From assembly GCF_900215515.1 (NCBI RefSeq), contig NZ_OBEI01000003.1:62001-126000 (forward strand): DNA of 64,000 nucleotides, given 5' to 3'. The stretch's first letter is position 1, and each line of letters starts with the position of its first letter. Shown here one piece after another: positions 3-7,776 of this stretch. The notes beneath the pieces were generated by a model, which saw only the letters and a program-made list of their open reading frames with translations, was not told where the DNA came from and ran no database searches. Source of the DNA: Persephonella hydrogeniphila (GTDB taxonomy: Bacteria; Aquificota; Aquificia; Aquificales; Hydrogenothermaceae). A program made the position numbers and the translations under genes.

Positions 3-1532
3 GAATACTACGACTACAGTCAGATAATGATTCTTGTAAGAACAAATAATCTCCTCCAGAAGATAGTAAAATCACTTCAGGAAAATAACATCCCTGTTAA
101 AACTTCCGGTTCAGGGAATATCTTTGAAACGGAAGAAATAAAAACCGTACTGAACTTTCTCCGATTTATAGAAAATCCAGAAAAATCTGTAAATGTTATT
201 AAAGTTCTAAAATCTCCTGTAGTAATGATTGATGATTCAGAGATATACAGGAAAAAGCACAATTTAAGCAAATACAACCATCCTGTAGTAAATCTTCTTC
301 TTACCTTATCCCAAAAGAAGTTCTCAATTTCCCCTTACGATATAGTTAATGAGATTTACAGAAAGACGGATATACTACCTGTTTTTTCTTCATTTGAGGA
401 TGGAAATGTAAAGGTAAAAAACCTGAACAGATTTATAGAGATAGTCCACAGACTTTCACAGGAAAACTATAATATCAGAGATATAATTCTGTACAGCGAA
501 ACCATCTCAGAGCCAGCCTTCGAAACAGAGGAAGAAAATGCTGTTGAAGTGCTTACAATACACAGGGCAAAAGGATTGGAAAAAGAGGTGGTTATCCTGC
601 CATTTATGGATAAAGACCCTTACAGAATAATGGAGAGAACGGTCTACTACAAAAATGGAAGTTTTATACTTAATCACCCAAGGGCAAAATCAGAAAATTA
701 CCACTGTATAAAAGAAGAGTTAGAAGAAGACGCTGTTAATGAGATGGAAAGGCTGCTGTATGTTGCTCTTACCCGTGCCAAAGAAAGAATATACATACTC
801 CGATCAGAAAAAAATCTTAGAAAAAACTCATTTTTAAAGATGATTGAAGGTTCAGTTAATCTGGCTGACTATACAGAAAAGGTAGAAAAAATCAGGAAAA
901 CCGAAAGGGAAGACATTCAAAAAATCCCAGAAATCCAGTTAAAAGAAGCAGAAGAAACAGAAAAGTTTCTAAAAAGAGAAAAAGAGATATCAGATGACAC
1001 AGAGAGATTCACAACAGTATCAAGACTGATGGAAAAAGACAGAACAGATAGTCTCAAAAAGAGTTCCGAAATCTCCATATACACAGGTATAGTTGTCCAT
1101 TCTGTTCTTGAAAAAACAGATTTTAAAAACTTCTCCTATCAAAAAGCCCTTCAGGAAATAAAAAAAATACTCGAGAGCATTCCTCCAAATCTCAGGAAAG
1201 AGGTAGAAAAAAGATCTGCAGATATTATGAGAATATTTGAAAGTTCAGAGATCTTAGATGAGCTCAGAAAAAGCCGCATCCTTTTCAGGGAAGTACCTTT
1301 TGTTATAAAGGAAGGAAACAGTTTTATCGAAGGGAGAATAGATGTTGTTTACCAGAAGGATGGAAAGATTTATGTGATGGATTATAAAACTACAGCTTAC
1401 AGCTCTGAAGAAGAGATAAAAAACAGGTATAAAACTCAGGAAAAGTACTATCTTAAAGCTATAAGCAGAATATTCCCCCAAAAAAATGTTCATTTCAAGA
1501 TAGGTATGCTTTTGACAGGGAAGATTGTATAA
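3..1532 (+). CDS. UvrD/Rep-family helicase-nuclease, C-terminal part (AddA/RecB-like)
   Basis: The frame is open to the left edge, so this is the 3' part of a longer gene; the first ATG at 27 is internal. It shows the C-terminal half of a superfamily 1 helicase: LTIHRAKGLE (motif V region) and ERLLYVALTRAKERIY (motif VI). A RecB-type nuclease domain follows near the end, with the expected E...GRIDVVY...YVMDYKTT pattern (GRID and DYK metal and catalytic residues). That combination fits the AddA or RecB class, which unwinds and resects double-strand breaks before recombination. The Walker A half lies outside the window, so AddA cannot be told from another helicase-nuclease. The end of the gene contains a promoter for the downstream block. 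Confidence 0.85.
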   Translation, partial: EYYDYSQIMILVRTNNLLQKIVKSLQENNIPVKTSGSGNIFETEEIKTVLNFLRFIENPEKSVNVIKVLKSPVVMIDDSEIYRKKHNLSKYNHPVVNLLLTLSQKKFSISPYDIVNEIYRKTDILPVFSSFEDGNVKVKNLNRFIEIVHRLSQENYNIRDIILYSETISEPAFETEEENAVEVLTIHRAKGLEKEVVILPFMDKDPYRIMERTVYYKNGSFILNHPRAKSENYHCIKEELEEDAVNEMERLLYVALTRAKERIYILRSEKNLRKNSFLKMIEGSVNLADYTEKVEKIRKTEREDIQKIPEIQLKEAEETEKFLKREKEISDDTERFTTVSRLMEKDRTDSLKKSSEISIYTGIVVHSVLEKTDFKNFSYQKALQEIKKILESIPPNLRKEVEKRSADIMRIFESSEILDELRKSRILFREVPFVIKEGNSFIEGRIDVVYQKDGKIYVMDYKTTAYSSEEEIKNRYKTQEKYYLKAISRIFPQKNVHFKIGMLLTGKIV

Positions 1533-1540
1533 GTTATTAT
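1512..1540 (+). promoter_or_regulatory. sigma70-type promoter of the receptor/c-di-GMP block
   Basis: TTGACA (1512-1517) is separated by 17 bases from TATTAT (1535-1540): a perfect -35 and 5 of 6 at -10. It overlaps the last codons of the helicase gene and lies about 35 bases upstream of the TTG start at 1575, which has AAAGAGG as a ribosome binding site. It is the best sigma70 match I found in the window. Confidence 0.65.
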
Positions 1541-1574
1541 TATATAAGCATTCTTAATAAGAAAGAGGTTTTTT

Positions 1575-3485
1575 TTGTTAAAAAACAAGATACCAAAACT
1601 GATATATATCCTGTTTTTTTTCATAGCGCTTAAAACTCAGGGAGAAGAAAACATCCTCTCCCTTATGAAAAAGTACGAAAAGGAATCAGACCTTTCCAAA
1701 AAAACAAAGAAAGAATCACTGGGACATCTGTACATCATCACAAGAAAACAGCTTGAAATAATGCAGATACACACACTGTCCCAGCTTCTGAAAGCCATAC
1801 CTATGTTTAATTTTTTCCCAAACAGATTTGGTATATATACATTAAGTAACCCTGGAGAGGTGGCAGGAATAGATATTAAATACAGACTTTATATAGATGA
1901 TCATGAGGTCAGTTCTATACATATCCTCAATCCATTCCTCATATACGATCATTATCCACTTGACCATATAAATCATATTGAGATTTACTACTCGATGGGA
2001 GCTATAGCTGTATCAAATGAACCTGCCCAGATGATCATAAAACTGTACACAAAAAAACCAGAGAGAGAAAACTCTTCAAAAATAAGGTTAACAAAAGACC
2101 TGAGGAACGGTTATGGAGGAAATATTCTAATAGCAAAAAAAATAAACAGTAATGAATCTTTCCTGTTTATGATGAATAAAAGTTTCTTCGATTACAGTTC
2201 CGTAGATGAACCTGATGGAAGGATATACAGAGATACAGCTCTTCAATCGATATTTTTCAAATATGATTACTACAACTATACATTTGAAACAGCCTATAAC
2301 TCTGTACATAGAGATCCTTTTACAGGATTCTCTATAGATGCAGTTCCTGATGACGGAAAGATTGACTCCCTCGATTTTTACCTCTATATCACAGCCTATT
2401 ACCTTTCAGACAAGTCCCTGAAAGTACATCTTTCTTACGACAATCAAAAAAGAGAGTATTTTGAAAAAAACAAAGAAGGGATATTTTATCCTTTAACTTT
2501 TTTCGATCCTTCTAACCCTTTTATCCTGTTTAATGAAAAAAGAACATTCGAAAAACATTCTGCATATGTAGAAAAAAAGTTCCAGAGCAGTAAAAATGAA
2601 ATTCTCACAGGCTTCTTTGTTAAATACTCAAAACAAAAAATCGAAAAGGAACTGCACAGAACATCAAGCGGAGATCTTACTGAAAAAGAAAAGTACATAA
2701 AAGATTTTAAGAATATCTCCCTTTACGCAGAAGATATATACTCTCTAAGGGAAAATGTATCTCTGATAGGAGGAGTTAGATTAGACAGGTATAAGTACTA
2801 CAGCATGAAACATAAGGATATTGTTCATCTCAGGGGAGGTATTTCTGGAATTTTTGATAGATTATCTATAAAAAGCTTCATTTCTTCTTCTTATCTTATA
2901 CCTTCAATGTACCTCCTTGAAAATGCAAAAGACAACAGATTAGACCCTATTCATGTTAAGGTTCTATCAGGAGAGCTTTCATACCAAATAAACAGTAAAA
3001 ATAATATATCTTTTACTGCTCAGTTTTTTACAGCAAAAAAGCATTTTTCATTTGATAAAAACAGTCTAAGATTTGTAAACGGTGCAGAAAAAGATTTTCA
3101 TGTATTTTCAGTTCTGTACAGATTTGAGCCAGACTTATTTAACAGCGTGGAACTAAACTACTGGTTTACAAATCAGGGAGATACAACTCTTTCTCCTTCT
3201 AACGGAGGATACATAAAGCTATTTTCGGAGTTCAAAAGATTACAGGTATACAATGAACTGGTGTACAGAGCATCCTACAGACCTCTTTTCTACGATTTTC
3301 CTTCATCCTTAAGCTACAGTTTTTCTGTAAAGTACAGATTACCTGAGGATTTTTCGATAAGTTTAAGAGGAGAAAATATCTTCGGAGGTACACCAAAGGC
3401 TGTAAGAGCTTTTCCGGTAGGATACCCAGTTTCTTACTCAGCTTACGATAGAAAGTACTACATTAGTATAAGCAAAATCTTTTAA
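1575..3485 (+). CDS. TonB-dependent-receptor-like outer-membrane protein, copy 1
   Basis: 636 residues from a TTG start behind AAAGAGG. A signal peptide (about residues 1-22) is followed by ENILSLMKKYEKESDLSKKT and then a plug domain (YIITRKQLEIM, LSQLLKAIP, YRLYIDDHEVSSIH, HIEIYYSMGAIAVSNEP). The remaining 450 or so residues are rich in alternating aromatic/polar strands, as in a beta-barrel, and the protein ends in ISKIF with the terminal Phe typical of outer-membrane proteins. Receptors of this class normally import siderophores or cobalamin using TonB. I see no clear TonB box, so transport and signalling remain equally possible. The next gene is a paralogue, and both sit upstream of a GGDEF-EAL protein. 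Confidence 0.75.
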   Translation: MLKNKIPKLIYILFFFIALKTQGEENILSLMKKYEKESDLSKKTKKESLGHLYIITRKQLEIMQIHTLSQLLKAIPMFNFFPNRFGIYTLSNPGEVAGIDIKYRLYIDDHEVSSIHILNPFLIYDHYPLDHINHIEIYYSMGAIAVSNEPAQMIIKLYTKKPERENSSKIRLTKDLRNGYGGNILIAKKINSNESFLFMMNKSFFDYSSVDEPDGRIYRDTALQSIFFKYDYYNYTFETAYNSVHRDPFTGFSIDAVPDDGKIDSLDFYLYITAYYLSDKSLKVHLSYDNQKREYFEKNKEGIFYPLTFFDPSNPFILFNEKRTFEKHSAYVEKKFQSSKNEILTGFFVKYSKQKIEKELHRTSSGDLTEKEKYIKDFKNISLYAEDIYSLRENVSLIGGVRLDRYKYYSMKHKDIVHLRGGISGIFDRLSIKSFISSSYLIPSMYLLENAKDNRLDPIHVKVLSGELSYQINSKNNISFTAQFFTAKKHFSFDKNSLRFVNGAEKDFHVFSVLYRFEPDLFNSVELNYWFTNQGDTTLSPSNGGYIKLFSEFKRLQVYNELVYRASYRPLFYDFPSSLSYSFSVKYRLPEDFSISLRGENIFGGTPKAVRAFPVGYPVSYSAYDRKYYISISKIF

Positions 3486-3524
3486 TAAATATTAAAATTG
3501 GTTAAGCAAAACAAGAGAAAAAAG

Positions 3525-5423
3525 ATGGGAAAACATAAAGTACTAAGCTGGATTACAGCAGTCTTATTGATAGTAGGAGTTGCAAAATCAGAAAACATAT
3601 TGTCACTGATGAAGAAGTATGAGGAGGAGTCTGACCTATCGAAAAAAACTAAGGTGGAAAGTCTCGGACATCTTGTCACATTTACACGAAAAGATCTGGA
3701 GCTGATGCATGCGTATACACTGGCAGATGTCCTGAAGCTTGTCCCTTTAAACAACTTTCTACCTAACAAATACGGAGTAGAATCTCTTATAAATCCCGGA
3801 AGCCCTCTATCTATATCCCTCGTGTACAGACTTTATATAGATGATCATGAAGTCAGTTCTATACATACATACAGCCCGTTTCTGACATACGACAGATACC
3901 CTCTGGATAATATCGACCATATAGAGATTTACTACTCTGCAGGTGCTATAGCCGTATCAAATGAACCTTCACAGATGATTATAAAGATGTACACCAAACT
4001 TCCCAGAAGGGAAAACGCTTCAAAAGTAAGGGTAAGCTTAGGTACAGATAAGTCTTACGGTCTGAACTTCTTCTCAGCAAAAAGGATCAACGATTACTCC
4101 TGTTATCTGATAAGTTTTTCAAAATCTTACTTTAGATTTCCAAAGCCTTATATAAATGGAAATCATATAAGCAGAAATCAGAGTAGAAAAGATCTTTTTA
4201 TAAAGTACAGATACTTTGATACCAGAGTAGAGTTTTCTGCTTCAGATGTAGATAGAGATGGTTTTGCAGGACGCTCATTAGACGAATCTCCTGAACATAT
4301 ATCTATAGATTCTCTGGACAGCTATATAGTTCTGACACAAAAATTCGATAACTCTGTTAAACTAACAGCTTCTTATGATTATCAGAATAGAAAATACGAC
4401 GAAGAAAATAAAGCCTCCGACGGAGGCACACTCGTTCCAGATAGATACGATCCTTTAAATCCTCCTGTATCCTTTACTGAAGATCTAAATTTTCACAAAT
4501 TTTCATTCTCGCTGGATAAAAAGATAAACAAAGAAAAAAACAGTTTGTTTATGGGAACTTTTTTGCGTTATTACATTCAGGACGTTACCGATAATAAGTA
4601 CAGGACTACAACAGGGGAATTCGATTTGAAAGGTGATATGTTTAGAGTTAAACATTTTTATATATGGTCATTTTATGCTGAAGACAGTTTCAATATAAAT
4701 GACAAAAACCTGATAATAGCAGGTCTCAGATACGATAAGTTCAAATTTTACGGTCAGAAATCTAAAAACAGACTTAACGGACGTGCAGGTCTGATATCTT
4801 TTGTTAACCGGAACTTTATGTTGAAAGGATTCTTATCACACTATCATGTACTACCTTCAATGATAATGATAGAAAGCTCAGTAAACAAAAGACTGAGCCC
4901 TATGCCTTCAACAGTTTTTACCGGAGAGGCAAAATACACCTTTGGGAAAAACTCAATAAGACTGTTTTACGAGTATTACAGAGTAAAAAATATAATCTCT
5001 TATGACCAGACAAAAGGGGGAATGGTAAATACAGGTAAATCAGGAAATTTCCATGGCTATGGATTTTTCTTTAGGAGGGAGATAGGAGATTACACAAATG
5101 TTGAGCTTAATTACTGGATAACAGATGTTGGAAAGGACAAATACTCTCCTGAAAGGGGAGGATACCTCAGGATTGGAGGAGATTTTGACAGATTTCAGAT
5201 CTATTCAGATATTGTATACAGGGGCTCTTATAAACCGTACGGTAGATATGTAAGGGAATCTTTTGATCTTAAAACAGCAGTTAGCGTCACCCTTCCAAGA
5301 GACTGGTATCTAAAGATAACAGGTGAAAATCTTCTGAATAAAGGAGAAAAAATAGCACTGAGAAATGGAGTGTTCAGTATTAATTATAGAAAAATTACCG
5401 TTACAGTAGAGAAGGTGTTTTGA
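3525..5423 (+). CDS. TonB-dependent-receptor-like outer-membrane protein, copy 2
   Basis: Paralogue of the preceding gene, 632 residues from ATG 3525. A TTG at 3498 would add nine residues, but ATG 3525 follows AGAGAAAAAAG and gives a clean signal peptide ending near VGVAKS. The mature N-terminus ENILSLMKKYEEESDLSKK and the plug blocks (TFTRKDLELMHAYTL, YRLYIDDHEVSSIHT, IYYSAGAIAVSNEPSQM) are nearly the same as in copy 1, whereas the barrel halves have diverged strongly. It ends in VEKVF (terminal Phe). The stop overlaps the next start as TTGA. The shared plug and different barrels suggest two ligands or partners feeding one function. Confidence 0.75.
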   Translation: MGKHKVLSWITAVLLIVGVAKSENILSLMKKYEEESDLSKKTKVESLGHLVTFTRKDLELMHAYTLADVLKLVPLNNFLPNKYGVESLINPGSPLSISLVYRLYIDDHEVSSIHTYSPFLTYDRYPLDNIDHIEIYYSAGAIAVSNEPSQMIIKMYTKLPRRENASKVRVSLGTDKSYGLNFFSAKRINDYSCYLISFSKSYFRFPKPYINGNHISRNQSRKDLFIKYRYFDTRVEFSASDVDRDGFAGRSLDESPEHISIDSLDSYIVLTQKFDNSVKLTASYDYQNRKYDEENKASDGGTLVPDRYDPLNPPVSFTEDLNFHKFSFSLDKKINKEKNSLFMGTFLRYYIQDVTDNKYRTTTGEFDLKGDMFRVKHFYIWSFYAEDSFNINDKNLIIAGLRYDKFKFYGQKSKNRLNGRAGLISFVNRNFMLKGFLSHYHVLPSMIMIESSVNKRLSPMPSTVFTGEAKYTFGKNSIRLFYEYYRVKNIISYDQTKGGMVNTGKSGNFHGYGFFFRREIGDYTNVELNYWITDVGKDKYSPERGGYLRIGGDFDRFQIYSDIVYRGSYKPYGRYVRESFDLKTAVSVTLPRDWYLKITGENLLNKGEKIALRNGVFSINYRKITVTVEKVF

Positions 5424-5881
5424 AAAGATTGATTGTAATTATTGCAGCTTTCGTATACTTTTTAGAGAGTTTTGCTCAGGAGATAGACAGGTCTATCAAG
5501 TACGAGATAAAAATACTTGAAAGGCTTGTTATAGATGTAACAAAAAAAAGACATCCCTCCGTTTATACAGATGGTTTAGATAACAGAAAAGTATACCTTT
5601 TACAGATGTACTCAAATCTGAGAATAGCCCCTAACATAACTGAAGCAGATTTTGTGTTTATAAAAAATAAAAAAGAGAAATACAACGCAATAAAACCAAC
5701 TCTTGCCCTTGATTTTACATCTATACGAAACTGTGATCTGTGCATAGGAGTTTTTTCCTGGAGGAATGGAAGGCCGATACTTATACTCTTTAAAGAGAAC
5801 CTTCAAAAGTATAATATAAAACTGCCGAAAGAGTATAGGTATTTTATCGAAAGTAAAAAATATATAATCGGTAAGAAATGA
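5420..5881 (+). CDS. Unrecognised small periplasmic protein in the receptor/c-di-GMP block
   Basis: 153 residues from a TTG start that overlaps the previous stop by 4 bases; it overlaps the next ATG in the same way, so the genes are translationally coupled. A signal peptide is clear (KRLIVIIAAFVYFLESFAQ). The mature part is basic, with a conserved-looking core TLALDFTSIRNCDLCIGVFSW and the two cysteines of CDLC, which could form a disulfide or bind a ligand. I do not recognise the family. Lying between outer-membrane receptors and an inner-membrane GGDEF-EAL protein with a periplasmic sensor domain, it could be the periplasmic messenger between them; that is inference. Confidence 0.7.
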   Translation: MKRLIVIIAAFVYFLESFAQEIDRSIKYEIKILERLVIDVTKKRHPSVYTDGLDNRKVYLLQMYSNLRIAPNITEADFVFIKNKKEKYNAIKPTLALDFTSIRNCDLCIGVFSWRNGRPILILFKENLQKYNIKLPKEYRYFIESKKYIIGKK

Positions 5882-7776
5882 ATCTGAGTAGCAGGAAAAG
5901 AAATTTTATCTACCTATTTTTAATCCTTATATTTTCGTTTCTAATTTTTATTTACATGTACTCTCTCATTCCTGTACTGGAAGAGCGTCTGGAAAGAAAG
6001 ATTATAGATATATCAACTAAAGATCTCATAGATGCCGTATACAGAGTAGTTGAGAGGAACTTACCTGAAAGAGATTTAATAATAACTGTCCTCTACAATC
6101 CAGATTACAGAAAAAAACTGAAAGACAATCTAAAAATATTCCTCTCTGAAAGGCTTAAATATATATTTCTTATATACAAAGATCCTTCAGGAAAGTACAG
6201 GTATCTGATAGATACAACAGCAAAGGATAACAGTGCCAATCTTCTTTTTATGCCTCTTAAAGAAGAGATAACGATATTAGATAAGGTACTAAAAACAAAA
6301 AAAGTACATTACAAGATACACAAGGAAGTATCAACAATAGGAATCACCTATTACCTCCCTGTAGTTCAGGGAAGAGAAGCAAAGGCTATTCTTGTGGCAG
6401 ATTTTTCTTTTGAGGTTCTTTAGGAGATTAAATCACTCATATCTCTGATACAGAGAGGAATTATAATCTCAATCAGTATTATCCTTTTAATACTGTTTGT
6501 TGCTCTGTACTACTTCTACAGAAATGTAATCTTAAAGCAGAGGGCTTATATAGACACGCTCACAGGTATATACAACAGAAATTACCTTGAGGATATAAGA
6601 GATGTTATAGACCTGAACAAATACACCGTTATGATGTTAGATATAGATTTCTTCAAAAATATAAACGATACATACGGACATCAGGTAGGGGACGAGATAC
6701 TGAAAGAGATAGCCAGACTACTTAAGGAGAATCTCAGAGAGGATGACATAATAATAAGATACGGGGGAGAAGAGTTTCTTATACTGCTTAAAAACTACAG
6801 AGAAGACCCAGAAGGCAAGTGGAGTCTTCAGGTTGCACAAAAACTACTCCAGAAAATAAGAGAATATAAATACAAAGGTATAAATCTAACAGCCTCTATA
6901 GGTCTTAATCTGGAAACCCACCGGGCAAGGAACCTTATGGAAGCTATAAAACAGGCAGATATAACTCTTTATAAAGCAAAAAGAGCAGGCAGAAACAGAA
7001 TTGAGATATATAAAGAGACAAAAGCTCCCAGAGAAATATCCCTTCCAGAGCTTAAGGACATAATTGAGACAAACCAAATTTCCTGTTTTTACCAGCCTGT
7101 TCTGAATATAAAAGACGGCTCTGTTTTATACTATGAAGCCCTTGCAAGAATACAGTACAGAAATGAGTATCTTTCCCCTGCAAGTTACATAGATATCATC
7201 AAAGGAACATTCCTGTACTTTAAGTTTACAAAGATTATAATAGAGTACAATCTGAATGTCCTCAGACAGAACAAAGATATGGTAATTAGTTTAAATATGT
7301 CCCCTTCTGATTTTCTAAATGAAGATATAATAAAAATCCTGAAATCTGTTGAAAAAGAAATAGTAAAAAGGATAAAACTCGAAGTTTTAGAAACAGAAGA
7401 TGTCCATAATTACAATACTCTAAGGGAAAATATTAACAGACTTAAAGAGTTTGGATACGACATAGTTTTAGATGATTTTGGTGCAGGTTATGTTGATTTT
7501 TACTACCTTACAGAGATAGAAGCAAAATTTATAAAAATTGACGGCTCTGTAATTAAAAAAATCCCCTACAATCAGCAATATTACAAACTTCTGAAACACC
7601 TTGTACAGTTCTGTAAAGATATAAATAAGATCCCTATTGCTGAGTTTGTCGAAAGTAAAGATATTTACGATATTTTGTTGGAGCTTGGGGTAGAGTACGG
7701 GCAGGGATACTATTTCTCAAAACCTATGCCCCTTGAACAGATAAAGAAAAAATTTCCTATTGAAAAGCAACTGTAA
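5878..7776 (+). pseudogene. Membrane GGDEF-EAL cyclic-di-GMP protein interrupted by an in-frame TAG
   Basis: One reading frame runs from 5878 to 7776 except for a TAG at 6421-6423 (codon 182). Residues 1-181 hold a membrane helix (about 11-30) and a sensor domain of about 150 residues. After the TAG the same frame encodes a second membrane helix, then GGDEF from DTLTGIYNRN (codon 226) with RYGGEEF (about codon 296) and an I-site RxxD five residues before it. An EAL domain follows (YEALARI at about codon 420, LNMSP, VLETED, LDDFGAGY, IKIDGS, EFVES, GQGYYFSKP). All catalytic motifs of both domains look intact. No ATG, GTG or TTG lies between the TAG and codon 252 to restart before the GGDEF core. 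The TAG may be a recent nonsense mutation, a read-through site or a sequence error. Confidence 0.8.

Follow-up and report, generated by a model that had tools for sequence, protein, structure and literature searches.

To our knowledge, it is poorly known how c-di-GMP enzymes learn of ligands beyond the outer membrane, and a locus of Persephonella hydrogeniphila raises the question whether a surface receptor can be connected to such an enzyme through the periplasm. In the window, by which we mean the whole stretch of 64,000 nucleotides that was analysed (G000:C3:62001-126000 of a 2.0 Mb genome), the list of open reading frames contains a row of two TonB-dependent-receptor-like genes, a gene for an exported protein of 153 residues and a gene for a membrane sensor-GGDEF-EAL protein. 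The first three reading frames lie at 1575-3485, 3498-5423 and 5420-5881, all on the + strand, and the block is flanked by a UvrD-like helicase gene upstream and a GATase gene (pabA-like) downstream. The first-pass annotation had described it as four genes joined by 4-base overlaps behind one strong promoter, encoding proteins of all envelope layers. The receptors, the exported protein and the GGDEF and EAL domains were indeed found, but the fourth gene is split by a TAG codon at 6421-6423, and the overlaps exist only at the last two junctions, whereas 12 bases separate the two receptor genes. A sigma-70-like promoter match, TTGACA-17-TATTAT, is present at 1512-1540 (+ strand), overlapping the 3' end of the helicase gene. 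Among the 22 sites found in 9 kb it ranks first, but shuffled sequences yield 32 +/- 5 sites, and neither of the two relatives used for comparison, L033 and L035, keeps the match in the equivalent place. Receptor 1 starts with TTG directly at a run of eight T (1569-1576), which could vary in length and thereby switch the frame of this receptor.

The small periplasmic protein (5420-5881, + strand) starts with a signal-peptide-like segment, has no match in Pfam or NCBIfam, and no PDB relative of it was found by sequence. However, its AlphaFold2 model (pLDDT 94, pTM 0.87) has a predicted YfiR-like fold, as YfiR makes up most of the 18 best PDB matches in Foldseek (probability 1.00, TM ~0.6, E 2e-3 to 1e-2, ~7% identity). 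YfiR is the periplasmic repressor of the diguanylate cyclase YfiN, for which the mechanism has been described (PMC3375315, PMC4655355). The DUF4154 HMM of YfiR (PF13689) does not match the small protein at E<=1, and the same search is empty in all 136 genomes of the window's phylum, with a positive E. coli control. When the small family was compared with 28 DUF4154 proteins using hhalign, the full length was aligned in the expected register, with 94% if the signal peptides were included and 14% without them; the negative control with the sensor domain gave 0.2%. Taken from the model, the YfiR fold of the small protein is well supported, and common descent with YfiR is likely, if unproven. The invariant core of the family is A...W-x-[K/N]-G-R-P, represented in the window by the nearly invariant motif W-R-N-G-R-P at 5759-5776 (+ strand). 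The CxxC emphasised in the first-pass annotation is present at 5732-5743 (+ strand), but alignment and co-occurrence confine it to one clade, so that it is no feature of the family: the cysteines come in alternative pairs, the CxxC being that of the clade to which the window belongs, whereas other members, many of them with a different pair, may also have none. Disulfide bonds of YfiR and HmsC are important both for the stability of these proteins and for their binding to the cyclase (PMC4655355, PMC5550408).

The locus searches took only the small protein as bait, which keeps gene context from being built into the counts. A single small-protein sequence recovered no related loci, whereas an alignment-based query did, and no relatives were found on the plasmids searched. 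The small protein is present in 30 of 41 genomes of the window's family, where the order receptor, small protein, sensor, GGDEF-EAL is kept at nearly every locus, and 43 of 136 genomes of the phylum were positive in a profile search. When named genomes were scanned, matches also appeared in Aquificaceae and in Campylobacterota (Sulfurimonas, Sulfuricurvum, Nitratiruptor and an Arcobacter MAG), and a survey of the latter phylum detected it in 87 of 397 genomes, with the context of the matches read at 60 loci. Pooled and made non-redundant, this gives 137 small-protein loci in Aquificota and Campylobacterota. A receptor gene lies directly upstream at 129 of them, and the gene downstream encodes a GGDEF-EAL protein (107 loci), a GGDEF protein without EAL (12, some of which may be truncated copies), a GGDEF protein cut by the end of the stretch (3), a histidine kinase (5) or something else, nothing or an edge (10). 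Histidine-kinase versions include those at L209, L238 and L243. Conservation thus covers the front end, while the outputs behind it are exchanged. At 122 of the 137 loci the next gene is a GGDEF gene, so the relatives of the small protein do not mostly occur away from such genes. Where they were examined, the genes outside the cassette are unrelated between lineages, so that the cassette behaves as a unit, and the gene order asked for in other genomes recurs across two phyla, by which chance adjacency is rejected. A few small genes, at L049, L235, L234 and L241, are found without a receptor or an output. The one at L235 (4588-5007) adjoins neither a receptor nor a GGDEF gene and is followed by a gene of the MotA/ExbB family.

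True YfiR proteins occur in a parallel arrangement. DUF4154 matches are present in 33 of 397 Campylobacterota genomes, and at about 20 of the 30 loci read a TonB-dependent receptor adjoins the DUF4154 gene. At L283 the order is receptor, DUF4154, CHASE8-HAMP-GGDEF (YfiN-type), and at L282 it is the same, with PAS and EAL in addition. These operons share with the cassette the three-part layout with a small gene between receptor and output, but differ in their recognisable YfiR and YfiN-type domains and in receptors with clear Plug matches. At two further loci, a DUF4154-GGDEF fusion of ~500 aa is encoded directly behind a TonB-dependent receptor gene (L300, 5270-6796; L301, 5065-6567). Judging from the parallel operons with true DUF4154, the small protein of the window takes the position of YfiR in an operon of equivalent layout. 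In a literature search of partial coverage, no paper describing operons of the L282/L283 type was found. Instead of passing a signal, the genes might be kept together by descent and co-expression while their functions are separate, since tightly overlapping, co-directional genes can persist for the sake of expression alone, and at a few loci one component is missing. We consider this very improbable, because the order holds in unrelated neighbourhoods of two phyla, one front end is combined with different outputs, and the equivalent cassette contains fusions of DUF4154 to GGDEF.

The two receptors of the window are not equivalent. Receptor 2 (641 aa; 3498-5423, + strand) is the one that is conserved across relatives, with orthologues directly upstream of the small gene, and it alone exceeds the Pfam cut-off for the barrel (PF00593, E 3.3e-10). 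Receptor 1 (636 aa; 1575-3485, + strand) is an extra tandem copy and remains below the cut-off (PF00593, E 3.6e-5). Neither gives a Plug match, whereas the receptor of the second cassette of this genome (C2:207227) has a Plug domain over the cut-off. Most relatives carry one receptor, and a single receptor is also found at most loci of the genus. At L051 (3603-5411), L053 (2380-4209) and L058 (3230-5041), the cassette is closely preceded by another receptor gene of this kind in divergent orientation, which again makes two receptors per relay. Receptors 1 and 2 share 64% identity in the N-terminus and plug and 34% in the barrel, a contrast that is only a hint, as the control is weak and consists of one informative pair (plug 50%, barrel 40%). 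Among 126 cassette receptors, conservation peaks in the mature N-terminus and the start of the plug (alignment columns 41-80), which is the expected place of the TonB box. In the window this segment lies at 1653-1793 in receptor 1, recognised from the family consensus, and at 3597-3737 in receptor 2 (LSLMKKYEEESDLSKKTKVESLGH...), both on the + strand, and it is the most conserved stretch of the 126 receptors. By eye, none of these aligned receptors has a canonical TonB box when judged against the conventional receptors of the genome, of which there are three beside two TonB proteins; at least one of them shows a TonB box (KTQITATR). Conventional uptake receptors for siderophores, haem or cobalamin resemble the cassette receptors in overall fold as far as the Pfam barrel match indicates, but the block lacks both the canonical TonB box and recognised uptake genes, and the plugs of the window are too divergent for Pfam. 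Neither a normal TonB box nor adjoining siderophore genes, either of which would have pointed to ordinary uptake, were thus found at the cassettes examined. It is rather unlikely, but conceivable, that the cassette receptors form a class of pure signal receptors that has lost TonB coupling, in which the conserved N-terminus LxxLL-Y-S-LSxKTKxESxG in the position of the TonB box docks the YfiR-fold messenger, so that the ligand alone would control c-di-GMP or a histidine kinase. The barrels would then diversify, with two receptors for one relay in the window, while the relay face is kept.

A combination of uptake and sensing was also considered, with the receptor as importer of a nutrient, the small protein as the periplasmic binding protein that carries it, and the GGDEF-EAL protein as the reader of its loaded state. 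The transporter fold kept by the receptors and the TonB proteins of the genome fit this, as does the similarity of the small fold to lobes of substrate-binding proteins in Foldseek (3lkv, 3lft and Rhodothermus marinus entries). However, most of the top structure matches are YfiR itself, none of the cassettes examined has a recognised transporter gene beside it, and the canonical TonB box is missing, for which reason we regard the combination as unlikely. Uptake of siderophores or nutrients alone was rejected as the main reading: no uptake genes were recognised next to the cassettes that were examined, no canonical TonB box was seen by eye, and the signalling outputs are swapped.

The output proteins point to signalling as well. 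The periplasmic sensor domain was modelled from an alignment of 23 sequences (AlphaFold2, pLDDT 93.8), and in Foldseek the model resembles Cache/PAS-type domains such as those of WalK, formate chemoreceptors and CitA; CHASE8 (PF17152) matches none of the 23 cassette sensors. The GGDEF-type and EAL motifs are both intact in the relatives, so that either or both activities are possible and the predicted sign of the output may be either way. In three of the five histidine-kinase outputs the sensor domain is shared with the GGDEF proteins, so that the front end is linked to signalling rather than to a single enzyme. The swap between c-di-GMP and histidine-kinase outputs behind one front end argues for signalling and against uptake alone, in agreement with what the first-pass annotation had proposed. 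After removal of the catalytic-domain signal, the pairwise distances correlate, as descriptive values, with 0.33 for small protein and sensor, 0.18 for small protein and plug and 0.09 for small protein and barrel.

In the window itself, the output gene does not encode one continuous protein. Its first half (5878-6423, + strand) comprises TM1 and the periplasmic Cache/PAS-like sensor domain and ends at the in-frame amber codon (6421-6423, + strand). The second half continues in the same frame (6424-7776, + strand) with TM2, GGDEF (~6544-6999; E 1.6e-40) and EAL (~7051-7725; E 9.7e-52), both with intact motifs. Unless there is an assembly error or read-through, the TAG thus separates sensor and TM1 (5878-6420) from TM2-GGDEF-EAL (6424-7773), and the first cassette copy of this genome is probably cut off from its output. 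The second cassette, at ~205 kb of another contig (G000:C2, L032), has an open frame, and the GGDEF-EAL frame is intact in 71 relatives. For the window copy, there is about an even chance that the amber codon reflects a genuine nonsense mutation, by which receptors and small protein no longer reach c-di-GMP and the cassette is decaying or a decoy, the alternatives being an assembly error or read-through. All five nearest relatives have CAG (Gln) at this position, from which the TAG differs by a single C-to-T change; no ATG, GTG or TTG restart occurs between the TAG and 6631, which is already inside GGDEF; and another cassette, L069, is clearly broken. On the other hand, the amber codon was seen in one genome only, and the downstream half retains its motifs and 78-80% identity to the nearest relatives, so that any decay must be recent. 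At L069 (G029:C21) the frames of receptor, small protein and output are all interrupted, which may stem from sequence quality, as this assembly is only 55% complete. A nonsense mutation in the window copy can be reconciled with a relay function of the family.

Among the known systems, YfiBNR of Pseudomonas aeruginosa and HmsCDE of Yersinia come closest. They share with the cassette the three compartments, with an outer-membrane partner, a periplasmic protein of YfiR fold and an inner-membrane GGDEF protein with a periplasmic PAS-like domain, the latter being present in the window with its halves parted by the TAG. The modular outputs (GGDEF, GGDEF-EAL, histidine kinase) are shared too: YfiR-YfiN[PAS] has been described as a widespread modular core with swapped outputs such as GGDEF-EAL and histidine kinases (Malone et al., 2012; PMC3375315), in a paper whose main text does not contain the word TonB. 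The differences are that the outer-membrane partner there is the OmpA-like lipoprotein YfiB and here a protein of TonB-dependent-receptor fold, and that the small protein of the cassette fails the DUF4154 HMM and its sensor has no CHASE8 match. FecA-FecR-FecI is similar in that a TonB-dependent receptor hands a surface signal to an inner-membrane protein, but the block receptors have no STN domain, the block has no gene for FecR or an ECF sigma factor, and a soluble periplasmic protein takes the middle place. As Pfam gave no STN, FecR or sigma match in the block genes and the two flanking genes, a FecIR-type system was rejected as the main reading. The first-pass annotation had stated that no described system has exactly this make-up. 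This agrees with our literature search of partial coverage, in which no account of the layout was found under YfiR/TonB, DUF4154/TonB or receptor/cyclase operons, but the annotation had left its closest counterpart, YfiBNR/HmsCDE, unnamed.

It is most likely that the cassette encodes a YfiBNR-like transenvelope relay, in which a receptor without canonical TonB box takes the place of YfiB. We consider it probable that receptor, small protein, sensor and output work together as such a system, with the genes, their order and its conservation in two phyla, the swapped outputs, the predicted folds and the parallel YfiR/YfiN-type cassette as its basis; physical contacts, direction of regulation, control by a ligand and independence from TonB are what we infer. 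The outer-membrane receptor would bind a surface ligand, and its conserved plug and N-terminal segment would change the amount of free YfiR-fold protein in the periplasm. This protein would bind the Cache-type sensor domain of the inner-membrane enzyme and thereby set the GGDEF-EAL output, or elsewhere a GGDEF-only or histidine-kinase output. The analogy with YfiR suggests that the small protein might keep the output fixed in one state for as long as it is not drawn off by the loaded receptor. Speaking against the relay are the failed DUF4154 HMM, the drop of the profile match from 94% to 14% without signal peptides, the stop codon in the output gene of the window and the small genes that have no receptor or output.

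YfiB is thought to sense the state of the envelope and not a diffusible ligand. The row of genes kept together across two phyla suggests a built-in route by which a surface ligand acts on a second messenger. The cassette would broaden the modular YfiR-YfiN concept by adding a new input at the outer membrane. Furthermore, an unannotated protein family is defined, with a predicted fold and likely partners. For the deep-branching, largely chemolithotrophic lineages in which it occurs, the cassette offers a testable connection between a surface receptor that diversifies and either c-di-GMP or a histidine kinase.
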